The notes beneath the pieces were generated by a model, which was given only the letters and a program-made list of their open reading frames with translations, was not told the DNA's origin and made no database searches. The translations under genes were made by a program, and so were the position numbers. Shown in pieces: positions 3,656 to 33,516 of a stretch of 44,804 nt of DNA. Positions within the stretch are counted from its first letter, which is position 1; each line of letters begins with the position of its first letter. The stretch is from Clostridia bacterium (lineage in GTDB: Bacteria; Bacillota; Clostridia; Oscillospirales; Acutalibacteraceae). Location of the stretch: contig JAFSEP010000012.1 of NCBI GenBank assembly GCA_017435665.1, positions 1 to 44,804 of the forward strand. The letters run 5' to 3'.

Positions 3656-4078
3656 TCAGAAGAATATGTTGTTCAGATCAACAGGAACATCCGTTTCAAA
3701 CGGATAAAGACATCTACCATCCTTGGTGCATCTCTGATGAGTATAAAAAGTGAGTATCAGTGTGATTTCTCTGTCGTTTTCATCTAACTCAAAGCAATTA
3801 CAATCTGCAAGCGATATTATACCGGAAAGATTGTTTAGATGCGACGTGGTATCAAAAGAAATATATGCCTTTATATCATATTTTTCTCTGACAATAACCA
3901 AATCCACATCATTCTCTTTTGAATAACAGACCAGTCTGTCAATGAACTTACATTCCTGCACTATACGGCTGGTAAGCTTTATATAAATAAGTTCATCATC
4001 GCATTCGTTCAGACAGCAAATATGACCGGAAGACTTAGGCACTCTTCTTGAATAAATAATTTCACCGTTTTTATTCAT
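3656..4078 (-). CDS. Hypothetical 140-aa protein
   Basis: I do not recognise this protein. It has no signal peptide or membrane segment and is rich in charged residues and cysteines, including CLNECDDELIY near the N-terminus and CTKDGRCLYPFE near the C-terminus. Alternating hydrophobic stretches suggest a beta-rich cytosolic fold. The ATG at 4078 is preceded by GGGAG. The stop lies only 8 bases from the inverted-repeat element, so the true C-terminus could have been altered by that insertion. Upstream on the same strand is a leader with a perfect intrinsic terminator and a nested stem-loop, which suggests controlled transcription and argues that the gene is real. Confidence 0.6.
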   Translation of the reverse strand: MNKNGEIIYSRRVPKSSGHICCLNECDDELIYIKLTSRIVQECKFIDRLVCYSKENDVDLVIVREKYDIKAYISFDTTSHLNNLSGIISLADCNCFELDENDREITLILTFYTHQRCTKDGRCLYPFETDVPVDLNNIFF

Positions 4079-4135: not shown

Positions 4136-4146
4136 TTTGACCTTTT

Positions 4147-4240
4147 GCTACAAAGTTTCATTCCAAGACAGGATATGAAAAGCAAAGCATACATTTTTTA
4201 CAAAAGTATGCCTGTCCGTATAAATATGAAACTTTGTAGC
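4147..4240 (-). repeat. 94-bp nested stem-loop (candidate aptamer or MITE)
   Basis: A perfect 15-bp inverted repeat (GCTACAAAGTTTCAT at 4147-4161, its complement at 4226-4240) encloses a second stem GACAG/CTGTC and a third stem GCATAC/GTATGC, with unpaired A/T-rich joints. The structure sits 23 bases upstream of the terminator/antiterminator pair of the 140-aa gene. It could be a regulatory RNA domain, or a tiny mobile element with 15-bp ends. I could not match it to a known riboswitch. Confidence 0.6.
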
Positions 4241-4299
4241 AGATTTATTCTATCACATAGGAAATCAAAATGCAACAAGTAAATATTTGCAAAAAATAA

Positions 4300-4322
4300 A
4301 GAAGTGCCGAGTCAGCACTTCT
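4300..4322. terminator. Bidirectional hairpin terminator
   Basis: An 8-bp stem AGAAGTGC/GCACTTCT with a 7-base loop is followed by TTTTACTT on the plus strand and has an A-rich left flank that gives T residues on the minus strand. It separates the 140-aa gene leader from the micro-ORF repeat that begins at 4338. Confidence 0.6.
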
Positions 4323-4337
4323 TTTTACTTATAAAGT

Positions 4338-4578
4338 CCCATAAAAGTTTAAAAACGTTTGATTTACATCAAACGTCTTTAAAAGGAGAAAATATGAAGA
4401 AAACATTCAAAAATGTGAGGAAATCGATCTATGTCAAGGAGGTTTCCCTCCGTTGACAATACATAGTTTACAATAGAGTGAAGAAAAAATCAATAGTTTT
4501 TCTTCAAGTTTTTCAACTTTGGATATTCTCACAATTCATTAGCGATTTTGCACAAGTTTTTGTGCAAAATATTGTGCA
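4338..4578 (+). repeat. Micro-ORF repeat, copy 1 (inverted partner at 6918-7157)
   Basis: About 241 bases that recur in inverted orientation at 6918-7157. Order of parts: a perfect 9-bp hairpin ACGTTTGAT-TTAC-ATCAAACGT (4355-4376), a strong AGGAG site, a 20-codon ORF (4394-4456), a spacer that has diverged between copies, and a terminal hairpin GCACAA-GTTT-TTGTGC. The first half is almost identical between copies, whereas the half after the ORF differs at roughly one base in six. The two copies point at each other and bracket the LCP and yibE/F-like genes. Confidence 0.85.
4394..4456 (+). CDS. Candidate 20-aa micro-protein, copy 1
   Basis: The ORF starts with ATG seven bases after AAAAGGAG and encodes a basic 20-residue peptide beginning MKKTFKNVRK and ending VSLR, then TGA. 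The second copy at 7040-7102 encodes the identical peptide; the only difference in 63 bases is ATC versus ATA, both isoleucine. A strong hairpin precedes the ribosome binding site in both copies. The peptide has no membrane segment. It may be a leader peptide, an element-encoded peptide, or a chance ORF inside a conserved RNA, because a short GGAGG/CCTCC hairpin also lies within it. Only two copies exist here, so the synonymous change is suggestive and no more. Confidence 0.4.
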   Translation: MKKTFKNVRKSIYVKEVSLR

Positions 4579-4599
4579 TTTTGCTATTTGTCAGCCACT

Positions 4600-5502
4600 T
4601 CATTCATACTGTCGGTTAAAGCTGTCAGTATTTTTCACCAATTCCGCCTTTGTTCCCTCTGTTTCAGCTATAAATTGACCGAGGCTTACCTTATTGTTTG
4701 AAAAGTCAAAGGCTGATATATCCGTATCAAGTATATTGACAAGGCTTTTGAAAATCTTATCGGCTTTCGCATAGTTTTCCTGAGTCAGAAATGCACAGAG
4801 CATATCAGAAAGAAAACCACTCATTGTTTCCGGCTTGTTCTCATTTCTTTGAGAAAGATAGTACATATATTTATAGCTTATATCGGGAGTAAGGGTCTGC
4901 TCCCCTTTTTCGATTATATATCCTACACCGTCAACGGAATAGCGCACCTTTTCTTTCACGTTACAGGGTACACCGCCGAAGATTTTTATAAGCCCCTTAA
5001 AGGATGAGTCTGTTGCACGGATATATCGGGATACCGTAACACCTGTCAGGCTTTCCACGGCGCTCCTGAGCTGTACCATACCCCCGTGGGACAGGTGCTT
5101 GCTGAGGCTGCCGTTAAAGCCGTTTGCCTGAACCACATCTTCTGCATCAAGAGTATATATACGTATCTTCCCTTCGCTGAGGCTGACGTTGGCAATAGCT
5201 GCATGGTGAAGATATTTTGAATCGTCATCCGAGCAGACCAAAAGGAAAGTTGCCGAACCCTCAAGAGTTGGGGTAATAACCGTTGTTTCTGATGTCTCAG
5301 TAGTTTCCGGGGTTCTTCCTATAAGATTGTCAATATCAAAATCATACTCCCTGAGAAGAAGAAGAACGCATACGCAGGCAAGCATTACAACCCCTATGCC
5401 GAAAACTATTCCGAAGGTGAATTTTCTGTGACCCTTCTGCTCCTTGTTCGTTCTGAATTCAAGGGAGGTGTTTATTTTATAATTAGAATTATTCTTTTTC
5501 AA
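4600..5502 (-). CDS. LytR/CpsA/Psr (LCP)-like membrane-anchored protein
   Basis: A 300-aa protein with a basic cytoplasmic N-terminus, one membrane helix at about residues 28-50, a T/E-rich linker, and an extracellular domain resembling LCP phosphotransferases, which attach anionic glycopolymers to peptidoglycan. The LCP match is seen in VTVSRYIRATDSSFKGLIKI followed by FGGVPC and a KGEQTLTPDISYKYMYY segment. The arginine-rich block that normally follows (R.R with GR..RQQ) is replaced by YLSQRNENKP, so it is a divergent and possibly inactive member. The start is TTG at 5502, preceded by GGAGG that overlaps the end of the yibE/F-like gene 14 bases upstream. This indicates translational coupling. 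Copy 1 of the micro-ORF repeat lies directly after its stop. Confidence 0.75.
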   Translation of the reverse strand: MKKNNSNYKINTSLEFRTNKEQKGHRKFTFGIVFGIGVVMLACVCVLLLLREYDFDIDNLIGRTPETTETSETTVITPTLEGSATFLLVCSDDDSKYLHHAAIANVSLSEGKIRIYTLDAEDVVQANGFNGSLSKHLSHGGMVQLRSAVESLTGVTVSRYIRATDSSFKGLIKIFGGVPCNVKEKVRYSVDGVGYIIEKGEQTLTPDISYKYMYYLSQRNENKPETMSGFLSDMLCAFLTQENYAKADKIFKSLVNILDTDISAFDFSNNKVSLGQFIAETEGTKAELVKNTDSFNRQYE

Positions 5503-5516
5503 AGGTTATACCTCCG

Positions 5517-6779
5517 TTAAAACAGACTTTTATCAAAATCAGCTTCCTCGCCGCTGATTTCAGGGGATTTTTCCCTTTTCCTTGTACGCTCGGGTCTTAC
5601 TGTATGTCCCGTATACAATGCCGAGCTTATCAAGGATGTCAGCGGTATTGTGAACAGTATTCCGAAGGAACCCACGAGTGCCTGAAGAATGTCAACGATT
5701 ATCATTTCTCTGTTAAGGGTTTCTATAAGAGGCTGTTCATATGCAAAAAGCATAACAACCGTTGACAGGGAGCTTCCTATATAGGCGAGAACAAGAGTGT
5801 TTGACATTGTTCCCATCATATCTCTGCCGATAGCCATACCCGATTTAAACATCCGACTGAAGTTTATATCGGGACTGTTTTCCCTGATTTCATAAAGTGC
5901 CGACGATACAGACATCGCAACGTCCATTATAGCACCCACAGCACCGATAATTATTGCGGCAAAGATAATAGCTTTCAGGTCAATAGGCTTGGGGGTTTCA
6001 AGATAAAGAAGATGCACCATTTCCTCTGTGGTGTTACCCGTAAGCCTGATGGCAATATCCGTAAGCTTGAATAATCCGCCGGCTATACATACGCCACCGA
6101 TGCAGCCTATCCCCGCAGTTATGCTTTTTTTGTTGAAGCCCTGAACTATCATAAGCGTCATAACGGTAATATAAGCGCAGCAGAGAATTGACCAAAGATA
6201 TACGTTCTTACCGGAAAGCACACCGGGAACAAAAACCGCAAAAACGGCAAGAATTGTAAACACCATTGATATAATCGTGTTGAAGCCCTTTGTTCTGCCG
6301 AAAACTATCAGAAGTATGCAGAACAGTATCAGCAGCAGAAGCAGAGCATCGGTTCTGACGAACTCAAAAAGCACGTAGCTGCTGTCGGCATTCTCGTACC
6401 CCACGTTATCCATAAGGATAATCTTCCTGCCCATTTCAACTCTCGTCGGGTCAACTACGCTGGTTCCCTCTATGATCTGAACGGCATCAACATATTTTCC
6501 CTTTTCATCACCCGAGGTTATTTTAGCAGTAAAATATATATAGGTATCCGTTTTCTGCACACCCGAATCATCGAAGGAGCCGTCAACGGTTTTTACTTCC
6601 CCCACTCTTTCAACCTTTGCCACATAGGTTTTTGCGCTGCTGTCAATCTCAAAGCGTGTAAGCCCGTCATTGGCAATAAAAGAAAACACAAGAAGTATGG
6701 CTAATGAAAATATAACTGTAAGTATATATATTATGACCCTTTTGTTTGTCAGCTTAGCCTTTATTTTATCTGAATTCAT
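5517..6779 (-). CDS. YibE/F family multipass membrane protein
   Basis: A 420-aa protein with an N-terminal membrane helix (about 14-34), an extracytoplasmic beta-rich domain to about residue 140, then seven or eight membrane helices. The core from TKGFNTIISMVFTILAVFAV through GAIMDVAMSVSSALYEI and the glycine-rich helices matches YibE/F proteins, whose function is not established; transport has been suggested. The C-terminus is a short charged cytoplasmic tail. The start ATG at 6779 follows AAAGGGTG. It forms a two-gene unit with the LCP-like gene. The whole unit is bracketed by the inverted micro-ORF repeats, and copy 2 sits between this gene and the htrA-like gene. Confidence 0.85.
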   Translation of the reverse strand: MNSDKIKAKLTNKRVIIYILTVIFSLAILLVFSFIANDGLTRFEIDSSAKTYVAKVERVGEVKTVDGSFDDSGVQKTDTYIYFTAKITSGDEKGKYVDAVQIIEGTSVVDPTRVEMGRKIILMDNVGYENADSSYVLFEFVRTDALLLLLILFCILLIVFGRTKGFNTIISMVFTILAVFAVFVPGVLSGKNVYLWSILCCAYITVMTLMIVQGFNKKSITAGIGCIGGVCIAGGLFKLTDIAIRLTGNTTEEMVHLLYLETPKPIDLKAIIFAAIIIGAVGAIMDVAMSVSSALYEIRENSPDINFSRMFKSGMAIGRDMMGTMSNTLVLAYIGSSLSTVVMLFAYEQPLIETLNREMIIVDILQALVGSFGILFTIPLTSLISSALYTGHTVRPERTRKREKSPEISGEEADFDKSLF

Positions 6780-6917
6780 ATAAACACCCTTTATCGGATT
6801 TATCCGATTGTATTAAACAATAAAAATGTAACCTTAGTGTTTTATAATTGTAAATAAAAGGCAAAAACTGTTTACATGCCGCCACTATCTTATTAAAACA
6901 CATATTTTTCGTTGTTT

Positions 6918-7157
6918 TGCACAATATTATGCACAAAAACTTGTGCATAACTGCCAATTAATTGTGTAAGTATCCAAAGTTAAAAAACTTGCAGAAAAAC
7001 TATTGCTTTTTCCCTTGCGCTGATGTAAACTATGTATTGTCAACGGAGGGAAACCTCCTTGACATATATCGATTTCCTCACATTTTTGAATGTTTTCTTC
7101 ATATTTTCTCCTTTTAAAGACGTTTGATGTAAATCAAACGTTTTTAAACTTTATAGG
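6918..7157 (-). repeat. Micro-ORF repeat, copy 2 (inverted partner of 4338-4578)
   Basis: Read on the minus strand, this copy reproduces copy 1 in order: hairpin ACGTTTGAT/ATCAAACGT (7120-7141), AGGAG, the 20-codon ORF, diverged spacer and the GCACAAGTTTTTGTGC hairpin. It occupies most of the 433-base gap between the yibE/F-like and htrA-like genes and points toward the former. Whether it supplies a promoter or leader to yibE/F is unknown. Confidence 0.85.
7040..7102 (-). CDS. Candidate 20-aa micro-protein, copy 2
   Basis: This encodes exactly the same 20-residue basic peptide as the ORF at 4394-4456, with the same AAAAGGAG spacing and the same TGA stop. The single nucleotide difference within the ORF is silent. 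See copy 1 for the alternative reading as part of a structured RNA. Confidence 0.4.
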   Translation of the reverse strand: MKKTFKNVRKSIYVKEVSLR

Positions 7158-7171
7158 GCTTTTTTAACATC

Positions 7172-7205
7172 AACGGCGATGCTCCGAAACAGGAGCATCG
7201 CCGTT
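7172..7205 (-). terminator. Strong hairpin after the htrA-like gene
   Basis: A perfect 14-bp stem AACGGCGATGCTCC/GGAGCATCGCCGTT with a 6-base loop starts 7 bases past the stop of the minus-strand protease gene. The minus-strand tail is not a clean T-run, but stem strength and position support termination or transcript stabilisation. Confidence 0.6.
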
Positions 7206-7212
7206 ATTATTA

Positions 7213-8841
7213 TCAGTTACCGAAGAAATGATTGAAGAAATCCTCAAAATCGCTGTATCCGCCGAACTGGTCATTATCACCGTAGTAATCGTAGTAGCTT
7301 TTAGTTGTGGTTTCTTCTTCCTTTTTTTGCGTATCGGGCTTTTCCTCAACTATCTTTGCCGTAACCTTAAACGTGCTTGTTTTATAGGTTCTTGCATCAA
7401 TGCGACAGATTTCAAGCTCGATTTCATCGCCCACCTTCGCATTGTCTATTATATCGAGAAGCACATCCGAGGATTTCATCTTCTTGCCGTTTACACCGAT
7501 AATCATATCGCCGACCTCAACCTTTGTGCCCTTGAGAGAGCTGTCATCGGAAATACCTGCGATAATAACCGAGCCTGAAGGCAGGCCCTTGATCTGAACC
7601 ACCATGCTGTATGCCTGATAATCACTTACAGATGCATAAGAAATACCGAGCTTGGGTCTGTTGGGTACGTAACCGTAAGAAATGATGCTTTCAACAATGC
7701 TCTTGGCTGTCTCCATAGGTACTGCAAAGCCGATACCCTCGTAATCTGTTGCGGCAATCTTTGAAGAATTGATGCCGATAACCTGACCTGATGAGTTTAC
7801 AAGAGCTCCGCCTGAATTGCCCGGGCTGATAGCTGCAGTATGCTGAATAACCTTCATAGTGTATGTTGAAGTGATTGAACGGTCAAGAGCAGAAACAATA
7901 CCGTCTGTAACTGAGCCGTAAAAGCTTGAACCGCCGGGATTGCCGATTGCGTAAACGGCCTCGCCTACTTTAAGTGCTGTTGAGTCACCAAAGGCAGCTG
8001 CCTTGAGGTTTGTTTCTTCAATGCTGAGAACACCAAGGTCCGTTCTTTCGTCATATCCGACCAGCTTTGCATCGTAAACAGTTCCGTCCTCAAGAAGAAT
8101 ACCGTAGGATGCGATTGTGCTGTCAGAAATAACGTGGGCGCAGGTTATGATATATGTCAGGCTGCCTGATTTATTCTGACCCATTACAACGCCTGAGCCT
8201 TCACCGTAAAGTGTGCCTCTTGAGTCATAAGCAACAACACCGACCACGCAATCCCTTGCCGTCTCCGCAACAACCGTTCCGGGAGAAACAATGGGAGAAG
8301 CTGTGTTTGATTCCTTGGTTGTGTCAACCTCAATCTGAGCAGAATCAACCGTTGAGGATGAGGTGTCGGATACATCCGGCTGAGAATGACCTCCTCCGTT
8401 TCTTCCTATTGCGATACCCATTCCCATAGAACCGATAACGATAAAAAGAACAAGCAAAACTGCAAGCACTTTTTTGCCTTTATTGCTTGAAGGCTTTTTA
8501 GGCGGCTGAGGATTACTGTAATTTGATGAAGAATAGCTGTTGTAACCGCCGTTTCCCGGGGCAGATGCCTTATAAGGATTATATTGCGTATGCTCAGCCT
8601 CAGAAGCCTCATATTCGCTGTCCTGCTTAGGATTGGGAATACGGTATTCACCTGAAGGATTTGACTGTTCAAAGCTGAAGCCGTCCTGATGTCCCTGTAA
8701 ATCCGCACCGTCGGACGATGTATACTCCGGCTCCTGATGATCTTTTTCCTGACTTGAAGAAAAGATATCCTCATTTACAGCAAAACCTTCGTTAGTCTGT
8801 TCGTTTTCATTTTCAAATGAATTTTCTTTTTCGAAATCCAT
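7213..8841 (-). CDS. HtrA/DegP-like membrane-anchored serine protease with PDZ domain
   Basis: A 542-aa S1C-family protease that would degrade misfolded or damaged proteins on the outer face of the membrane. It has a long acidic, asparagine- and serine-rich cytoplasmic N-terminus (about 120 residues), one membrane helix at 124-146, a low-complexity S/T linker, then the trypsin-like domain. The catalytic triad is visible as His236 (in TCAHV), Asp268 (in RTDLG) and Ser343 (in GNSGG). A PDZ domain follows from about residue 390 and includes GDMIIGVNGKKM. The C-terminus is rich in Tyr, Asp and Phe. GGGAG precedes the ATG. It lies downstream of a response regulator and histidine kinase on the same strand, as in CssRS-HtrA envelope-stress modules, which suggests a functional link. 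Confidence 0.9.
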   Translation of the reverse strand: MDFEKENSFENENEQTNEGFAVNEDIFSSSQEKDHQEPEYTSSDGADLQGHQDGFSFEQSNPSGEYRIPNPKQDSEYEASEAEHTQYNPYKASAPGNGGYNSYSSSNYSNPQPPKKPSSNKGKKVLAVLLVLFIVIGSMGMGIAIGRNGGGHSQPDVSDTSSSTVDSAQIEVDTTKESNTASPIVSPGTVVAETARDCVVGVVAYDSRGTLYGEGSGVVMGQNKSGSLTYIITCAHVISDSTIASYGILLEDGTVYDAKLVGYDERTDLGVLSIEETNLKAAAFGDSTALKVGEAVYAIGNPGGSSFYGSVTDGIVSALDRSITSTYTMKVIQHTAAISPGNSGGALVNSSGQVIGINSSKIAATDYEGIGFAVPMETAKSIVESIISYGYVPNRPKLGISYASVSDYQAYSMVVQIKGLPSGSVIIAGISDDSSLKGTKVEVGDMIIGVNGKKMKSSDVLLDIIDNAKVGDEIELEICRIDARTYKTSTFKVTAKIVEEKPDTQKKEEETTTKSYYDYYGDNDQFGGYSDFEDFFNHFFGN

Positions 8842-9027: not shown

Positions 9028-10500
9028 TTATCTCGGTATCACAAAGGTGAATTCTGTATACTCGCCTTCCCGACTGTTTGCTTCGATTTTGCCGTCGTGC
9101 ATATTTATTATGGTCTTTACAATATAAAGTCCCAAGCCTACACCCTTTACGTCAAAGCTTCGTGACTCGTCAACCTTATAAAAGCGCTCGAAAATTCTCG
9201 ATATCTGCTCGGGTGATACACCCGGACCTGAATTTCTGATGGTTACGGTTGTGCTTTCACTGTCGCCCTTTGCAAAAAAGCTGATTTCACCGTTTTCGGG
9301 TGTGAATTTCACAGCGTTATCAATAAGATTAAACACAACCTGATGAATAAGATCCCTGTCGGCAACAATTTTAACATCGCCGATTTCCTCAAGGCCGTTT
9401 ATGGTTATATTCTTTTCGTTTATTCTTTGTTCCATTGAGAACAGAGCCTCAAAAATCTGTGTCTGTATGCTGTATTTAACGGGATTTATTCCTATTTCAC
9501 CCGATTCCATTTTTGAAAGATTAAGCATAGCCACAACCAGTCTTGATAATCTCTTGACCTCCGAGGAAACGGTTTCAAGATACTCCTTTTCCTTTTCTTC
9601 GGGAATCGTTCCGTCAAGAATGCCGTCAACGAATCCGCCGATTGTGGTCATAGGTGTTTTCAGCTCGTGCGAAACGTTTGCAACAAAGCTTTTCTGCGTC
9701 TGGTCATAAACGGCGATTTCATCAGCCATTCTGTTAAGTGCCCTTGCCATTTCAGCCATTTCACCGTCCAGCTTTCTGTCATCGATATGATATGTGAAAT
9801 CGCTTTTCGCATAGTGATCCGTAGCTTCAATCATATTCATAATGGGTCTTGTATATGTTCTGCCATAGGCATAAATAAACAAAAAGGCAAGCAAAAGAGT
9901 CAACACAGCTGCAATAAGAAGCATCTCACTCAGCGATGCAACATATGGCAGCAAACCACCGACGGCATTAATAGTACCGAAAACCCCTGCAACCGTCTTT
10001 CCTTCATAAGTAACGGGCAAGCCTACAACAAAGTTAGAACTGTCGTCCCCTTCTTCAATACCGGTAAGCTCTGTTACACCGCCCTGCTTTGTGCCTTCAA
10101 CAAGCTCTTTTTTTATTTTCAGTTCCTTATGCTGGGTACATTCTTTTCCGCTATTATCAAAGGAGTGACGACAAATAACAATGTTACCGTCAAGGTCTGT
10201 AATAAAGTAATCCGCAGCCGTAGCCTTTGAAAATGCCTCCATATCGTTTCCGAGAACCAGAACGTTCAGTGCTCTGTCAACCCCGTCGCCATCCGTTGTC
10301 TTCAGAACCTTCGTATAGTCCTCTGCTATACTGTGGCAGTTCATATCCAGCATTTCCACCTTTTCATCCCACCATTGGTTCGTAACAAGAACAACGGTCA
10401 TAAGGGAAAACACCAGAAACGCAAACATAATAAGCAATGCGGCACCCAGATAAAATTTGACAAAAAATTTTGTTCTTCTTTTTTTATTTCTTTTATTCAT
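9028..10500 (-). CDS. Sensor histidine kinase (HAMP, HisKA, HATPase_c)
   Basis: A 490-aa membrane kinase. Two membrane helices (about 17-40 and 191-211) flank an extracytoplasmic sensor domain of about 150 residues. A HAMP linker follows (RPIMNMIEATDHYAKSDF), then the phospho-acceptor His278 in NVSHELKTP, the N box near FNLIDNAVKF and G boxes ending in GVGLGLYIVK. The cognate regulator is the upstream gene on the same strand, 70 bases away. A complete intrinsic terminator lies in that gap, so kinase levels should be lower than regulator levels. The ligand is unknown; the neighbouring htrA-like gene suggests cell-envelope stress as an inference. Confidence 0.92.
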   Translation of the reverse strand: MNKRNKKRRTKFFVKFYLGAALLIMFAFLVFSLMTVVLVTNQWWDEKVEMLDMNCHSIAEDYTKVLKTTDGDGVDRALNVLVLGNDMEAFSKATAADYFITDLDGNIVICRHSFDNSGKECTQHKELKIKKELVEGTKQGGVTELTGIEEGDDSSNFVVGLPVTYEGKTVAGVFGTINAVGGLLPYVASLSEMLLIAAVLTLLLAFLFIYAYGRTYTRPIMNMIEATDHYAKSDFTYHIDDRKLDGEMAEMARALNRMADEIAVYDQTQKSFVANVSHELKTPMTTIGGFVDGILDGTIPEEKEKEYLETVSSEVKRLSRLVVAMLNLSKMESGEIGINPVKYSIQTQIFEALFSMEQRINEKNITINGLEEIGDVKIVADRDLIHQVVFNLIDNAVKFTPENGEISFFAKGDSESTTVTIRNSGPGVSPEQISRIFERFYKVDESRSFDVKGVGLGLYIVKTIINMHDGKIEANSREGEYTEFTFVIPR

Positions 10501-10570: not shown

Positions 10571-11260
10571 TCAATCCTTGGTTTCAAATTTATAGCCTAC
10601 GCCCCAGACAGTTCTGAGCTCCCACTTATCTGAAACGCCTTCAAGCTTTTCACGCAGTCTCTTAACGTGAACGTCAACCGTTCTGGAATCACCGTAGTAA
10701 TCAAAGCCCCAAACCTCATCAAGAAGCTGATCTCTTGTGAAAACTCTGTTAGGATTCTTTGCAAGATGGAAGATAAGCTCCATTTCTTTGGGAGGTGTAT
10801 CTACCTGCTTGCCGTTAACCTTGAGCTCATAGTTTGTCAGGTTGATTGAAAGCTTGTCATAGTGAACCTCTTTGATTTCGTCAACGGGATTCTTTGCCGC
10901 ACGGCGAAGAACAGCCTTCACTCTGGCAATGATTTCCTTTGTATCAAAGGGCTTTACAACATAATCATCTGCGCCAAGTTCCAGACCGAGAACCTTGTCA
11001 AATACCTCGCCCTTTGCCGTAAGCATAATAATGGGGTTGTCAGAGAATTTTCTGATTTCTCTGCAAACCTGCCAACCGTCAAGACGGGGAAGCATAATGT
11101 CAAGCAATACAAGATCCGGAGATTCCTCCTGAAACATTGTTACAGCAGTAACACCATCATTTGCAATGGCAACTGTATATCCATCCTTTTCAAGATAAAG
11201 TCTTAATAATTCGCAGATATTAAGATCGTCGTCAACAACAAGTATTTTGCCTAAACTCAT
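10571..11260 (-). CDS. OmpR/PhoB-family response regulator
   Basis: A 229-aa two-domain regulator. The receiver domain has the acidic pair at residues 10-12, the phospho-acceptor Asp54 in VLLDIMLPRLDGW, the LTAK threonine and the lysine of VVKPF. A winged-helix DNA-binding domain fills residues about 130-229, with the typical end DSRTVDVHVKRLREKL. GAGGAGG lies before the ATG. AT-rich sequence upstream (11320-11345) contains TATAAT-like motifs for a promoter. It heads the unit regulator, kinase and htrA-like protease. Confidence 0.95.
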   Translation of the reverse strand: MSLGKILVVDDDLNICELLRLYLEKDGYTVAIANDGVTAVTMFQEESPDLVLLDIMLPRLDGWQVCREIRKFSDNPIIMLTAKGEVFDKVLGLELGADDYVVKPFDTKEIIARVKAVLRRAAKNPVDEIKEVHYDKLSINLTNYELKVNGKQVDTPPKEMELIFHLAKNPNRVFTRDQLLDEVWGFDYYGDSRTVDVHVKRLREKLEGVSDKWELRTVWGVGYKFETKD

Positions 11261-31569: not shown

Positions 31570-33516
31570 TCAGACCTTGATTAAAAAGCCGAAATACCTG
31601 TTTATGAAGTTTTTAACTGCTCTGTAAATGATATCGAAAAATTCGGTAACACCCAGCTTGTTGAACCATTCGAGAGTTTCCTCGTCCTTGATATGATCCT
31701 CAAATCCGCTGTCCGAAGCAAGCTTCACATAGGGATTCTCTCCGTCGTACTCAGGAGCATCACCGTTAAGCAGAGTAAAGTAGAACGCCTTATCGTTCAG
31801 AGGTGTAATACTGCCCACAAGGGTATATGCAACCGTAACCTCTGCAACGGAGAGGCTTTCAGCAGGAACTTCCCCGTCAAATTCTAATTCAAGGCTTTCA
31901 CCCGGTGCAAGAGCCTTAAAGAGATAATCTGTCGGATCGAAGCTGATATCTGCACCGCTGACGGAGACTGAAGAAATCTGCATATTGTTCTTGAGTGAAA
32001 GGTTAGTAACAATCAGCTTTGTGTCCGAAGAATCAAGATATCCGGGAACAGATGAATCAAATTCCGCATAAACCGACTCGCAGACATTCATCGCCTCATG
32101 GAACTGAGGATAAGCCTCATATGTGCGAACATTGACTCTTTCGTCTGACTCAACGAGAAGCTTCATAAGCGTCTTTGAATACTCATCCTTGAAGGTCATA
32201 CCATGGAAAAGACCGTCAACAAACCAGGTCGTTTCTGGAAGGTATGCCGTAGTTGCATCAACATTCATCTTAGGAGAAAGATGGTTATGTGCGGAATTAT
32301 CGCAATTCTTACCTATTACCTGATAACCGTCATTGAATCTGTAACCGAAAGGAGCGCAGGTTGCACCGGATGAAGCGTTAAGAGAGATAATTGCATCGGA
32401 TTCCTCCTGTGTTCCCACAACGCTGGGTGCTCCGTAACCGCTGATAATATAGATATTTGCACCTGCATCCTCAGCCTTTTCAAGAAGTGAGGGAAGGTTG
32501 GGCAGAAGCTCATAGTGGAAGTAATCGCACTTTTCCATTACCTCTGAATTACGGAATTCTTCAGTAACCTCAAAATTCGCCTTGATTTCCTCATACTTAT
32601 CAGCAGGAACAAAATCCCAGATGCTTCCCCATCTGCCCAGAAGCTGATATGCATAGGGCATAAGATAATGAAGAAGCTCATCAAGGAAGCCCAGAGCATG
32701 AGCCTTCATAAGCCAGTCAAGGTCTTCCTCAAGCATCATACCGTTCTGTATAAAATACATAAGGGTTTCTTCATCAAAGTGAATATCATCTGCAAGAAGA
32801 TCGTAAGCAAGAAGTGCACCTCCGATAGCAGGTACTGTGAGAACAGCGTTATTTACCCTAGCCTTATACCCGTAAAGTGAAAGATAGGTTGCGCTTGTCT
32901 GACCGCCGTGGCTGACTGCAAGGATATTAACCTTTGATGCGCCCGTATATTCGAGGACATCTTCAATATATACGTCAAGATCCTTTGCACAGTCAACAGT
33001 ATTCTGTCTGAAATCTGTTGAAAAATTAAAGGTCCATTCATCAGCCTTTTCACCCAGATACTGAGAAACGTAGGGCATTATCTCTGTCTCATGTGTATGC
33101 GCACCGTTTTCGTTTTCTTTAAGCCATGCTGTGCTTGTATCCTCAGCATCCTTATGGTAACGGTAAAGCTCATAAACAGATTCACCCTTTTCGTCGTATG
33201 CAAGGTCGCCGTAAAGCTCCAGCATTGCTGTACCTAATCTGTCCGCAAGACGCTTTGCATCACCCTGAGCAAGATTAGCAATATCAATTCCGATTTCGAT
33301 TGCCGATTCCTTTACACGGCCGAGAATTTCATCAAGGTCTACGCCCCAGACGTGTACCTTATCACCGTTCTCATCAATTCTGTACATACTCGATGAGCTG
33401 TAACCGGGAACAATGATGATGGGATAGACCTCATCCTCCTGCACTGCAACAGCCACAGGTGCCGTAAGCACGAAGCACATTGTCAGCGCAAGAATTACCG
33501 CAAATATTTTCTTCAT
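31570..33516 (-). CDS. Secreted alpha/beta-hydrolase (lipase-like) protein
   Basis: A 648-aa exported protein with a signal peptide (MKKIFAVILALTMCFVLTAP then VAVAVQ). The mature start YPIIIVPGYSSSSMYR matches the strand and HG/PG oxyanion region of PGAP1 or LCAT-like lipases. The nucleophile elbow is AVSHGGQTS (GxSxG variant with Ser in SHGG). IYIISGYGAPS further on is shared with the paralogue at 13684-15606. The C-terminal 150 residues are beta-rich, followed by an amphipathic tail FFDIIYRAVKNFINRYFGF. An acyl-ester substrate is likely but unproven. GAAGGAGG precedes the ATG. The gene is monocistronic, with a terminator after it and a 290-base intergenic region upstream. Confidence 0.78.
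   Translation of the reverse strand: MKKIFAVILALTMCFVLTAPVAVAVQEDEVYPIIIVPGYSSSSMYRIDENGDKVHVWGVDLDEILGRVKESAIEIGIDIANLAQGDAKRLADRLGTAMLELYGDLAYDEKGESVYELYRYHKDAEDTSTAWLKENENGAHTHETEIMPYVSQYLGEKADEWTFNFSTDFRQNTVDCAKDLDVYIEDVLEYTGASKVNILAVSHGGQTSATYLSLYGYKARVNNAVLTVPAIGGALLAYDLLADDIHFDEETLMYFIQNGMMLEEDLDWLMKAHALGFLDELLHYLMPYAYQLLGRWGSIWDFVPADKYEEIKANFEVTEEFRNSEVMEKCDYFHYELLPNLPSLLEKAEDAGANIYIISGYGAPSVVGTQEESDAIISLNASSGATCAPFGYRFNDGYQVIGKNCDNSAHNHLSPKMNVDATTAYLPETTWFVDGLFHGMTFKDEYSKTLMKLLVESDERVNVRTYEAYPQFHEAMNVCESVYAEFDSSVPGYLDSSDTKLIVTNLSLKNNMQISSVSVSGADISFDPTDYLFKALAPGESLELEFDGEVPAESLSVAEVTVAYTLVGSITPLNDKAFYFTLLNGDAPEYDGENPYVKLASDSGFEDHIKDEETLEWFNKLGVTEFFDIIYRAVKNFINRYFGFLIKV

Follow-up and report, generated by a model that had tools for sequence, protein, structure and literature searches.

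Predicted small RNA genes with a core antisense to gene starts, found in one genus of uncultured gut Clostridia

Small RNAs (sRNAs) of low-GC Gram-positive bacteria such as RsaE/RoxS and FsrA carry a C-rich motif that binds Shine-Dalgarno (SD) sequences. RsaE and FsrA are also named in a report on LhrC of Listeria, an sRNA which binds mRNA via CU-rich sites, with three UCCC-containing sites, and whose expression depends on a two-component system and envelope stress (PMC4132741). The cia-dependent small RNAs (csRNAs, Ccn) of Streptococcus are 51–202 nt long, intergenic, and equipped with their own promoter and terminator. They consist of two stem-loops, and the unpaired region between them, in which CAU serves as the anti-start, is complementary to the SD sequence and the start codon; this arrangement was proposed to control translation initiation, mostly negatively (PMC3091779). 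The pairing of csRNAs around the start region of comC is backed by compensatory changes (PMC4507080). Here, a pair of inverted repeats is described from a Clostridia bacterium of the family Acutalibacteraceae (assembly GCA_017435665.1, contig JAFSEP010000012.1, positions 1 to 44,804; this whole stretch of 44,804 nucleotides is called the window). With a probability of roughly 0.82, the repeat copies are sRNA genes characteristic of one genus, whose core would block the translation start regions of other genes.

The repeats are located at positions 4329–4578 and 6918–7167 (250 nt, complementarity 90%), and the inverted pair reported in an earlier note, made from the sequence of the window alone, is real. 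No third copy was found in the window genome, as both the DNA search and a covariance model returned two places only; the two copies are a duplication. When copy 1 was used as the query against 39 genomes, the window genome included, 21 genomes were matched: the window genome itself, 19 congeners, and one genome of another family. Eighteen of the congeners have in common the stretch AGGAGAAAATA(T/C)GAAGAAAACATT and little besides, and the other matches fall elsewhere in the query. The earlier note had read each copy on the strand of a 20-codon open reading frame (ORF), here called the micro-ORF. The homologues aligned on the opposite strand show the parts of a small-RNA gene. Each copy is predicted to be a free-standing small non-coding RNA gene of about 110 nt (109–130 nt over 33 copies), in which an unpaired stretch rich in U and C separates a 5′ hairpin from the terminator hairpin at the 3′ end. 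The sequence comparison establishes this architecture, the strand, the conserved core, and its complementarity to gene starts, and the general features of a trans-acting sRNA are present in the sequence: its own promoter and terminator, an intergenic position, no conserved ORF, and a conserved seed.

The comparison is based on 33 aligned copies from 31 genomes, gathered by similarity to the core (at most 3 substitutions in 24 positions). One duplicate locus (L082) was removed from the set, and a copy found later in genome G044 stands outside it. All 33 copies have a promoter of the form TTGNNN-N17-TANNNT in the 110 nt that precede the core (shuffles: mean 1.64, maximum 6), while spacers of 15, 16, 18, and 19 were seen in 0 or 1 copies each. 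With the spacer left free at 16–18, 17 was picked in 28 of the 28 copies scored; the copy L034, which fails the stricter promoter pattern and fits the looser one, is unscored in this test.

The terminator helix was analyzed with a covariance model, R1, built from 17 majority-type copies with an author-defined structure, and pairs were counted on the realigned hits. In this alignment, which leans towards its own imposed structure, 99.7% of the cells are paired and 11 of the 12 pairs have changed on both sides, a level reached in none of 500 shuffles. The count covers 35 model hits in 30 distinct rows, with one chance hit (L013, minus strand), and pairing falls to 37–57% when one arm is slid as a control. 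RNAalifold predicted no pairs on the full alignment, because the terminator arms are misaligned between groups. Compared with shuffles, copies 1 and 2 of the window fold with z-scores of −5.26 and −5.09; in four relatives, the z-scores were −4.84, −2.72, −5.61, and −4.49.

The 21-nt core UGUUUUCUUC(A/G)UAUUUUCUCC is invariant at 20 of its 21 positions in all 33 copies, an invariance due in part to selection, since the copies were gathered by similarity to the core. The 5′ part of the sRNA diverges and does not align between groups. The complement of the core consists of AGGAG, a spacer, AUG, and the codons AAG AAA ACA (KKT) as codons 2–4; that is, it has the form of the start of an MKKT gene. 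The single variable position, A or G, faces the U of AUG and pairs either way. Exact matches to the 24-mer were found in 29 stretches of the GTDB collection. Twenty-six of them are members of the sRNA family, in entries of uncultured Oscillospiraceae, Ruminococcaceae, Clostridia, and similar, many from ruminants. The remaining three, from other phyla (two from Elusimicrobium and one from Omnitrophota), are the starts of long ORFs that begin with MKKTL and have signal-peptide-like N-termini by eye; they are accompanied neither by the promoter nor by a strong downstream hairpin. In the divergent copy from G044 (L126, model match 5020–5092), two UUUUCUCC motifs and a different terminator are observed, and the upstream TTGCAA-N17-TATTAT is kept. 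In a fold that leaves out its first bases, this copy is apparently devoid of the 5′ hairpin.

Most copies have a box resembling TTNANNNAAAGGTAGAA, with up to 2 mismatches, upstream of the −35 hexamer: its start is at 41 bp in 24 of the 33 copies, at 52 bp in three, at 51 bp in one, and elsewhere in three, and in two copies no box was found. The shift of 10–11 bases corresponds to about one helical turn, as would be expected for an activator site. ACAAAA is seen further upstream in 29 copies, a count made without a chance control. The window copies contain GCACAA/TTGTGC repeats and no TTNANNNAAAGGTAGAA-like consensus. With one mismatch allowed, 31 places with the box were listed in 34 genomes, 10 of them beside the sRNA; eight of the other 21 are one repeated sequence in G021.

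In the copies folded, the sRNA resembles the csRNAs in having an unpaired anti-SD/anti-AUG region between a 5′ stem-loop and a terminator. Unlike in csRNAs, a CiaR-type box (TTTAAG-N5-TTTAAG, up to 2 mismatches) is absent from all 33 copies in the 110 nt upstream of the −35 hexamer and the hexamer itself. Most genomes have one copy, in contrast to the five siblings in S. pneumoniae, and the core extends to codons 2–4, is nearly invariant across the genus, and comes from another bacterial class. The sRNA is therefore proposed to work like a csRNA and is not classed as one, because the CiaR-type promoter is lacking. LhrC appears to be a looser analogue: UCCC is found in the 5′ plus linear part of only 5 of the 33 copies, and the core is instead one long anti-start stretch.

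Rfam 15 gave no match for the sRNA at the gathering score, the matches in the window being two tRNAs elsewhere. In a permissive listing of 4250–7250, all entries were far below their gathering scores, and RsaE/RoxS and FsrA were not among them. A known RNA family was thus rejected. A literature search combining sRNA with Oscillospirales or Ruminococcaceae found nothing, and the main text of a structured-RNA survey of human microbiomes contains none of the terms sRNA, Shine-Dalgarno, Ruminococc-, and Oscillospir- (PMC8040213). It is well supported that this is an sRNA family; its general kind is known, and its anti-gene-start seed is unusually rigid.

The model R1 found the sRNA in 32 of the 34 genomes of the genus, including all 15 with a completeness of 90% or more and a contamination of no more than 5%; most of these hits include sequences used to build the model. 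The 24-mer pattern, independent of the model, was found in 31 of the 34 with up to 3 mismatches. It was not found in G008, which is 72% complete, and in G022, which has 490 contigs and 6% contamination. Of the 32 positive genomes, 30 carry a single copy, and G000 and G045 carry two each. In a sample of the order, R1 matched 13 of 394 genomes at E ≤ 0.001 under stricter filters, the window genome among them. The 12 other matches scored 31–39 bits and the weakest true members 38–41 bits, and therefore the score alone does not separate them. The 17-spaced promoter is absent from all 12, and several are starts of long antisense ORFs. The 21-mer pattern (up to 2 mismatches) was found in 18 of 200 genomes of the taxonomic family, three of them of the genus. 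The promoter is absent from all 15 others; in 11 of these matches, an antisense ORF of 60 or more codons starts at the site, and nine of the 11 ORFs begin with MKK. No member outside the genus was recognized among the other 393 genomes of the order and 197 of the family sampled. Judged from these genomes, the sRNA family is restricted to one genus of uncultured gut bacteria. The exact 29-nt pattern had no match among the viral contigs of IMG/VR, and viral carriage was rejected on this basis.

Pairing between the sRNA and gene starts was analyzed in two gene samples, each about 14% of one genome's worth, and targets cannot be listed for this reason. In the window genome (218 genes from 311 kb), the sRNA is predicted to pair more strongly with gene starts than with gene interiors, by 5.04 kcal/mol, and this preference was 3.57 ± 0.63 kcal/mol for 40 shuffled seeds. 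In the congeners (201 genes from 334 kb), for all of which a single linear region from one congener was used, the preference was 5.58 against 3.68 ± 0.59, with 0 of 30 shuffles as high. Genes that are signal-peptide-like by a crude rule of the author's own rank higher, with an area under the curve (AUC) of 0.66 against 0.55 ± 0.05 in the window genome and 0.63 against 0.51 ± 0.05 in the congeners, the latter above 30 of 30 shuffles. The top pairing gene in each sample encodes a secreted alpha/beta hydrolase, and the two are related; a secreted hydrolase gene beginning at 33516 on the minus strand is a candidate target. A gene which we take to be ArgR has the same start region in the three genomes compared; conserved genes may keep their starts anyway.

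Several observations weigh against the proposed function. The preference for targets is only modest, since one or more of the 40 shuffled seeds reached 5.12 kcal/mol in the window genome, and the best shuffled AUC there, 0.68, exceeds the true value. In several relatives, pairing with the hydrolase, the best lead, is poor. Apart from the sRNA itself, the 24-mer has a single site within 3 mismatches in the genus, at the start of an MKKT gene of G047 that is not secreted-looking, so that no conserved target is apparent. Some near matches in other genera are at the starts of proteins that lack a signal peptide, and the bias to secreted proteins is therefore a tendency at most. In the predicted ensembles, the core is open only to a moderate degree, with a mean of 0.70 and values over 0.7 in 19 of 33 copies, and one relative's fold z-score is −2.72 only. 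The 33 copies were chosen by core similarity; the model search added a single further copy, that of G044, whose core carries an extra U and a C. A consensus scanner flagged neither of the window promoters and just one of the two terminators, that of copy 1. The window hexamers (TTGATT/TTGCTT and TAAACT) are too poor for such a scanner, and the case rests on comparison. Finally, of the 28 copies followed by an ORF of 90 aa or more, 22 have this ORF in the same direction and six have it convergent; one further copy is followed by none.

Expression of the proposed sRNA would follow activation of its promoter, possibly through a regulator that binds the conserved upstream boxes. The sRNA core would then pair with the SD sequence and the start codon of several mRNAs, and the pairing would hide these gene starts and repress translation by blocking ribosome binding. 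It is probably a trans-acting, csRNA-like sRNA which covers the start regions of many targets, perhaps with a bias to secreted proteins. The seed fits the starts of MKK(T) genes, and therefore secreted proteins and lipoproteins are likely to be among the targets. It is doubtful that the sRNA goes as far as a global brake on translation of the secretome, acting as the antisense of an idealized secreted-gene start (SD, AUG, K-K-T) and not on one or two mRNAs. As an alternative mode of action, the same sRNA could activate translation, or titrate another RNA or protein. No conserved full-length target was found, so a different partner is possible. In the core, however, the antisense of SD and that of AUG stand in register, an arrangement by which csRNAs were proposed to control initiation, mostly negatively (PMC3091779), and this alternative is improbable.

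The predominance of codirectional ORFs would fit a cis-acting leader or attenuator of the gene directly downstream. The genes beside the sRNA, however, vary between clades, and the downstream ones belong to many clusters that are unrelated. Identified by eye and not by a family search, the latter include a MATE transporter, a serine dehydratase, a Na/Pi cotransporter, a lipoprotein, and a small regulator. The convergent cases, among them copy 2, which is directed towards the 3′ end of an HtrA-type protease gene, do not agree with a leader, nor does the conserved terminator helix, and this explanation is very unlikely.

The repeats bracket a YibE/F gene (PF07907, E-value 7.5e-78) and an LCP-family gene (PF03816, E-value 2.2e-7); the Pfam matches agree with the earlier description of this two-gene unit. 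The specific link that was proposed with it did not pass the test named in the earlier note, as an LCP gene adjoins the sRNA only in the window genome and G045 among 29 copies with neighbours listed. The association looks incidental, and the sRNA does not appear to depend on yibE/F-LCP. In G045, two tandem copies (L086, 4151–4261 and 5496–5606) stand on either side of an LCP gene, which clusters with the LCP gene of the window, and yibE/F is absent there. The upstream regions of paralogues within a genome are 82–86% identical, compared with 62–66% between the two genomes, which suggests separate duplications or gene conversion. This within-genome similarity holds though both genomes have a copy directly downstream of the LCP gene.

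The inverted arrangement around two genes and the varying neighbours would suit a small mobile repeat, similar to a miniature inverted-repeat transposable element (MITE), or a composite element with yibE/F and the LCP gene as its cargo and the repeats as its ends. The copy number of one, or at most two, per genome is not that of a MITE, which is expected in many dispersed copies; moreover, conservation falls on the parts of an RNA gene, and the tandem copies of G045 enclose the LCP gene without yibE/F. No transposase was found among the 14 window ORFs scanned against Pfam. The composite element suggested in the earlier note is unsupported, and both forms of this explanation, rejected on copy number and context, are hardly credible.

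The micro-ORF MKKTFKNVRKSIYVKEVSLR, with a strong ribosome site, is indeed present in both window copies with one silent difference. Among the 33 copies, its start codon is ATG in 17 and ACG in 16, and its frame stops after five codons in 17 (MKKTL in 12 and TKKTL in five); a few frame lengths in this count stop early at the end of the excised RNA. The 20-codon form is found only in the two window copies. In G045, one copy has a frame of six codons and the other a different, longer frame. A back-translated peptide pattern had no match in the GTDB genomes. With start codon and frame not conserved among the homologues, and the promoter and terminator on the opposite strand, a translated 20-aa micro-protein or leader peptide fails the test named in the earlier note and can be dismissed in spite of the ribosome site, the ATG, and the silent difference. 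The micro-ORF is, on this comparison, a shadow of the sRNA core on the opposite strand, and the core's complement, having the look of a gene start, was taken for an ORF.

The functional RNA which had been offered as the alternative to a peptide is supported by the promoter, terminator, and core on that strand. The uneven conservation of the two halves was also confirmed: divided at the predicted RNA start, 116 of 120 positions are identical in the half with the hairpin and micro-ORF, and 102 of 125 in the other half. The front hairpin exists, but is the predicted terminator at the RNA 3′ end; likewise, the spacer with the GCACAA hairpin exists, but corresponds to the promoter and upstream region of the RNA gene. 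The copies had been described as facing inward; as the working strand is the one opposite to the micro-ORF, the two RNAs point outward. Features of both copies are summarized in Table 1.

Table 1. Positions of predicted sRNA features in the window
Feature	Position	Strand	Basis and remarks
sRNA copy 1, predicted transcript of ~110 nt	4351..4460	−	5′ hairpin, linear region with anti-SD/anti-start core, terminator; fold z-score −5.26, 200 shuffles
−35 hexamer TTGATT, copy 1	4488..4493	−	17-nt spacing as in 33/33 copies; below threshold of consensus scanner
−10 hexamer TAAACT, copy 1	4465..4470	−	Promoter comparison
Core, copy 1	4384..4407	−	Exact match; + strand complement is AGGAGAAAATATGAAGAAAACATT (SD, AUG, codons 2–4)
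Intrinsic terminator, copy 1	4348..4383	−	Terminator scanner; helix covariation in relatives
Upstream region, copy 1, GCACAA/TTGTGC repeats	4494..4580	−	Repeat comparison
sRNA copy 2, predicted transcript	7036..7145	+	Fold z-score −5.09
−35 hexamer TTGCTT, copy 2	7003..7008	+	Promoter comparison; not flagged by consensus scanner
−10 hexamer TAAACT, copy 2	7026..7031	+	Promoter comparison
Core, copy 2	7089..7112	+	Pattern match, alignment
Terminator hairpin, copy 2 (same hairpin as copy 1)	7113..7148	+	Inverted-repeat listing, fold; not listed by scanner
Upstream region, copy 2, GCACAA/TTGTGC repeats	6915..7002	+	Repeat comparison
Micro-ORF, copy 1, putative antisense shadow of sRNA	4394..4456	+	ORF comparison over 33 copies
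Micro-ORF, copy 2, putative antisense shadow of sRNA	7040..7102	−	ORF comparison over 33 copies

Beside copy 2, genes for an HtrA-type trypsin/PDZ protease (7213–8841), a HAMP histidine kinase (9028–10500), and an OmpR-type response regulator (10571–11260) are encoded. We take this set to be reminiscent of CiaRH-HtrA of streptococci. The analogy was set aside, as copy 2 faces the 3′ end of the protease gene and the protease cluster has no other member in the compared loci. A perfect 16-bp inverted repeat, TGCTACAAAGTTTCAT / ATGAAACTTTGTAGCA, is present at 4146–4241, with 64 bases between its arms, and is positioned between the ORF 3656–4078 and sRNA copy 1. In G020, CGCACAAAATATGAAGAAAA recurs in the first 70 bases of nine contigs and in two other places; it is probably a repeat that broke the assembly.

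The finding adds an sRNA family without a match in Rfam 15 to a group of uncultured gut Clostridia. Its seed is unusual in that nearly every position is fixed while the 5′ parts of the same RNAs fail to align. It is also a caution for annotation, as an anti-SD RNA can cast a shadow that has a perfect ribosome site and an ATG. Should the sRNA act as a brake on secreted proteins in general, it would offer a simple handle on the control of secreted enzymes in these bacteria.

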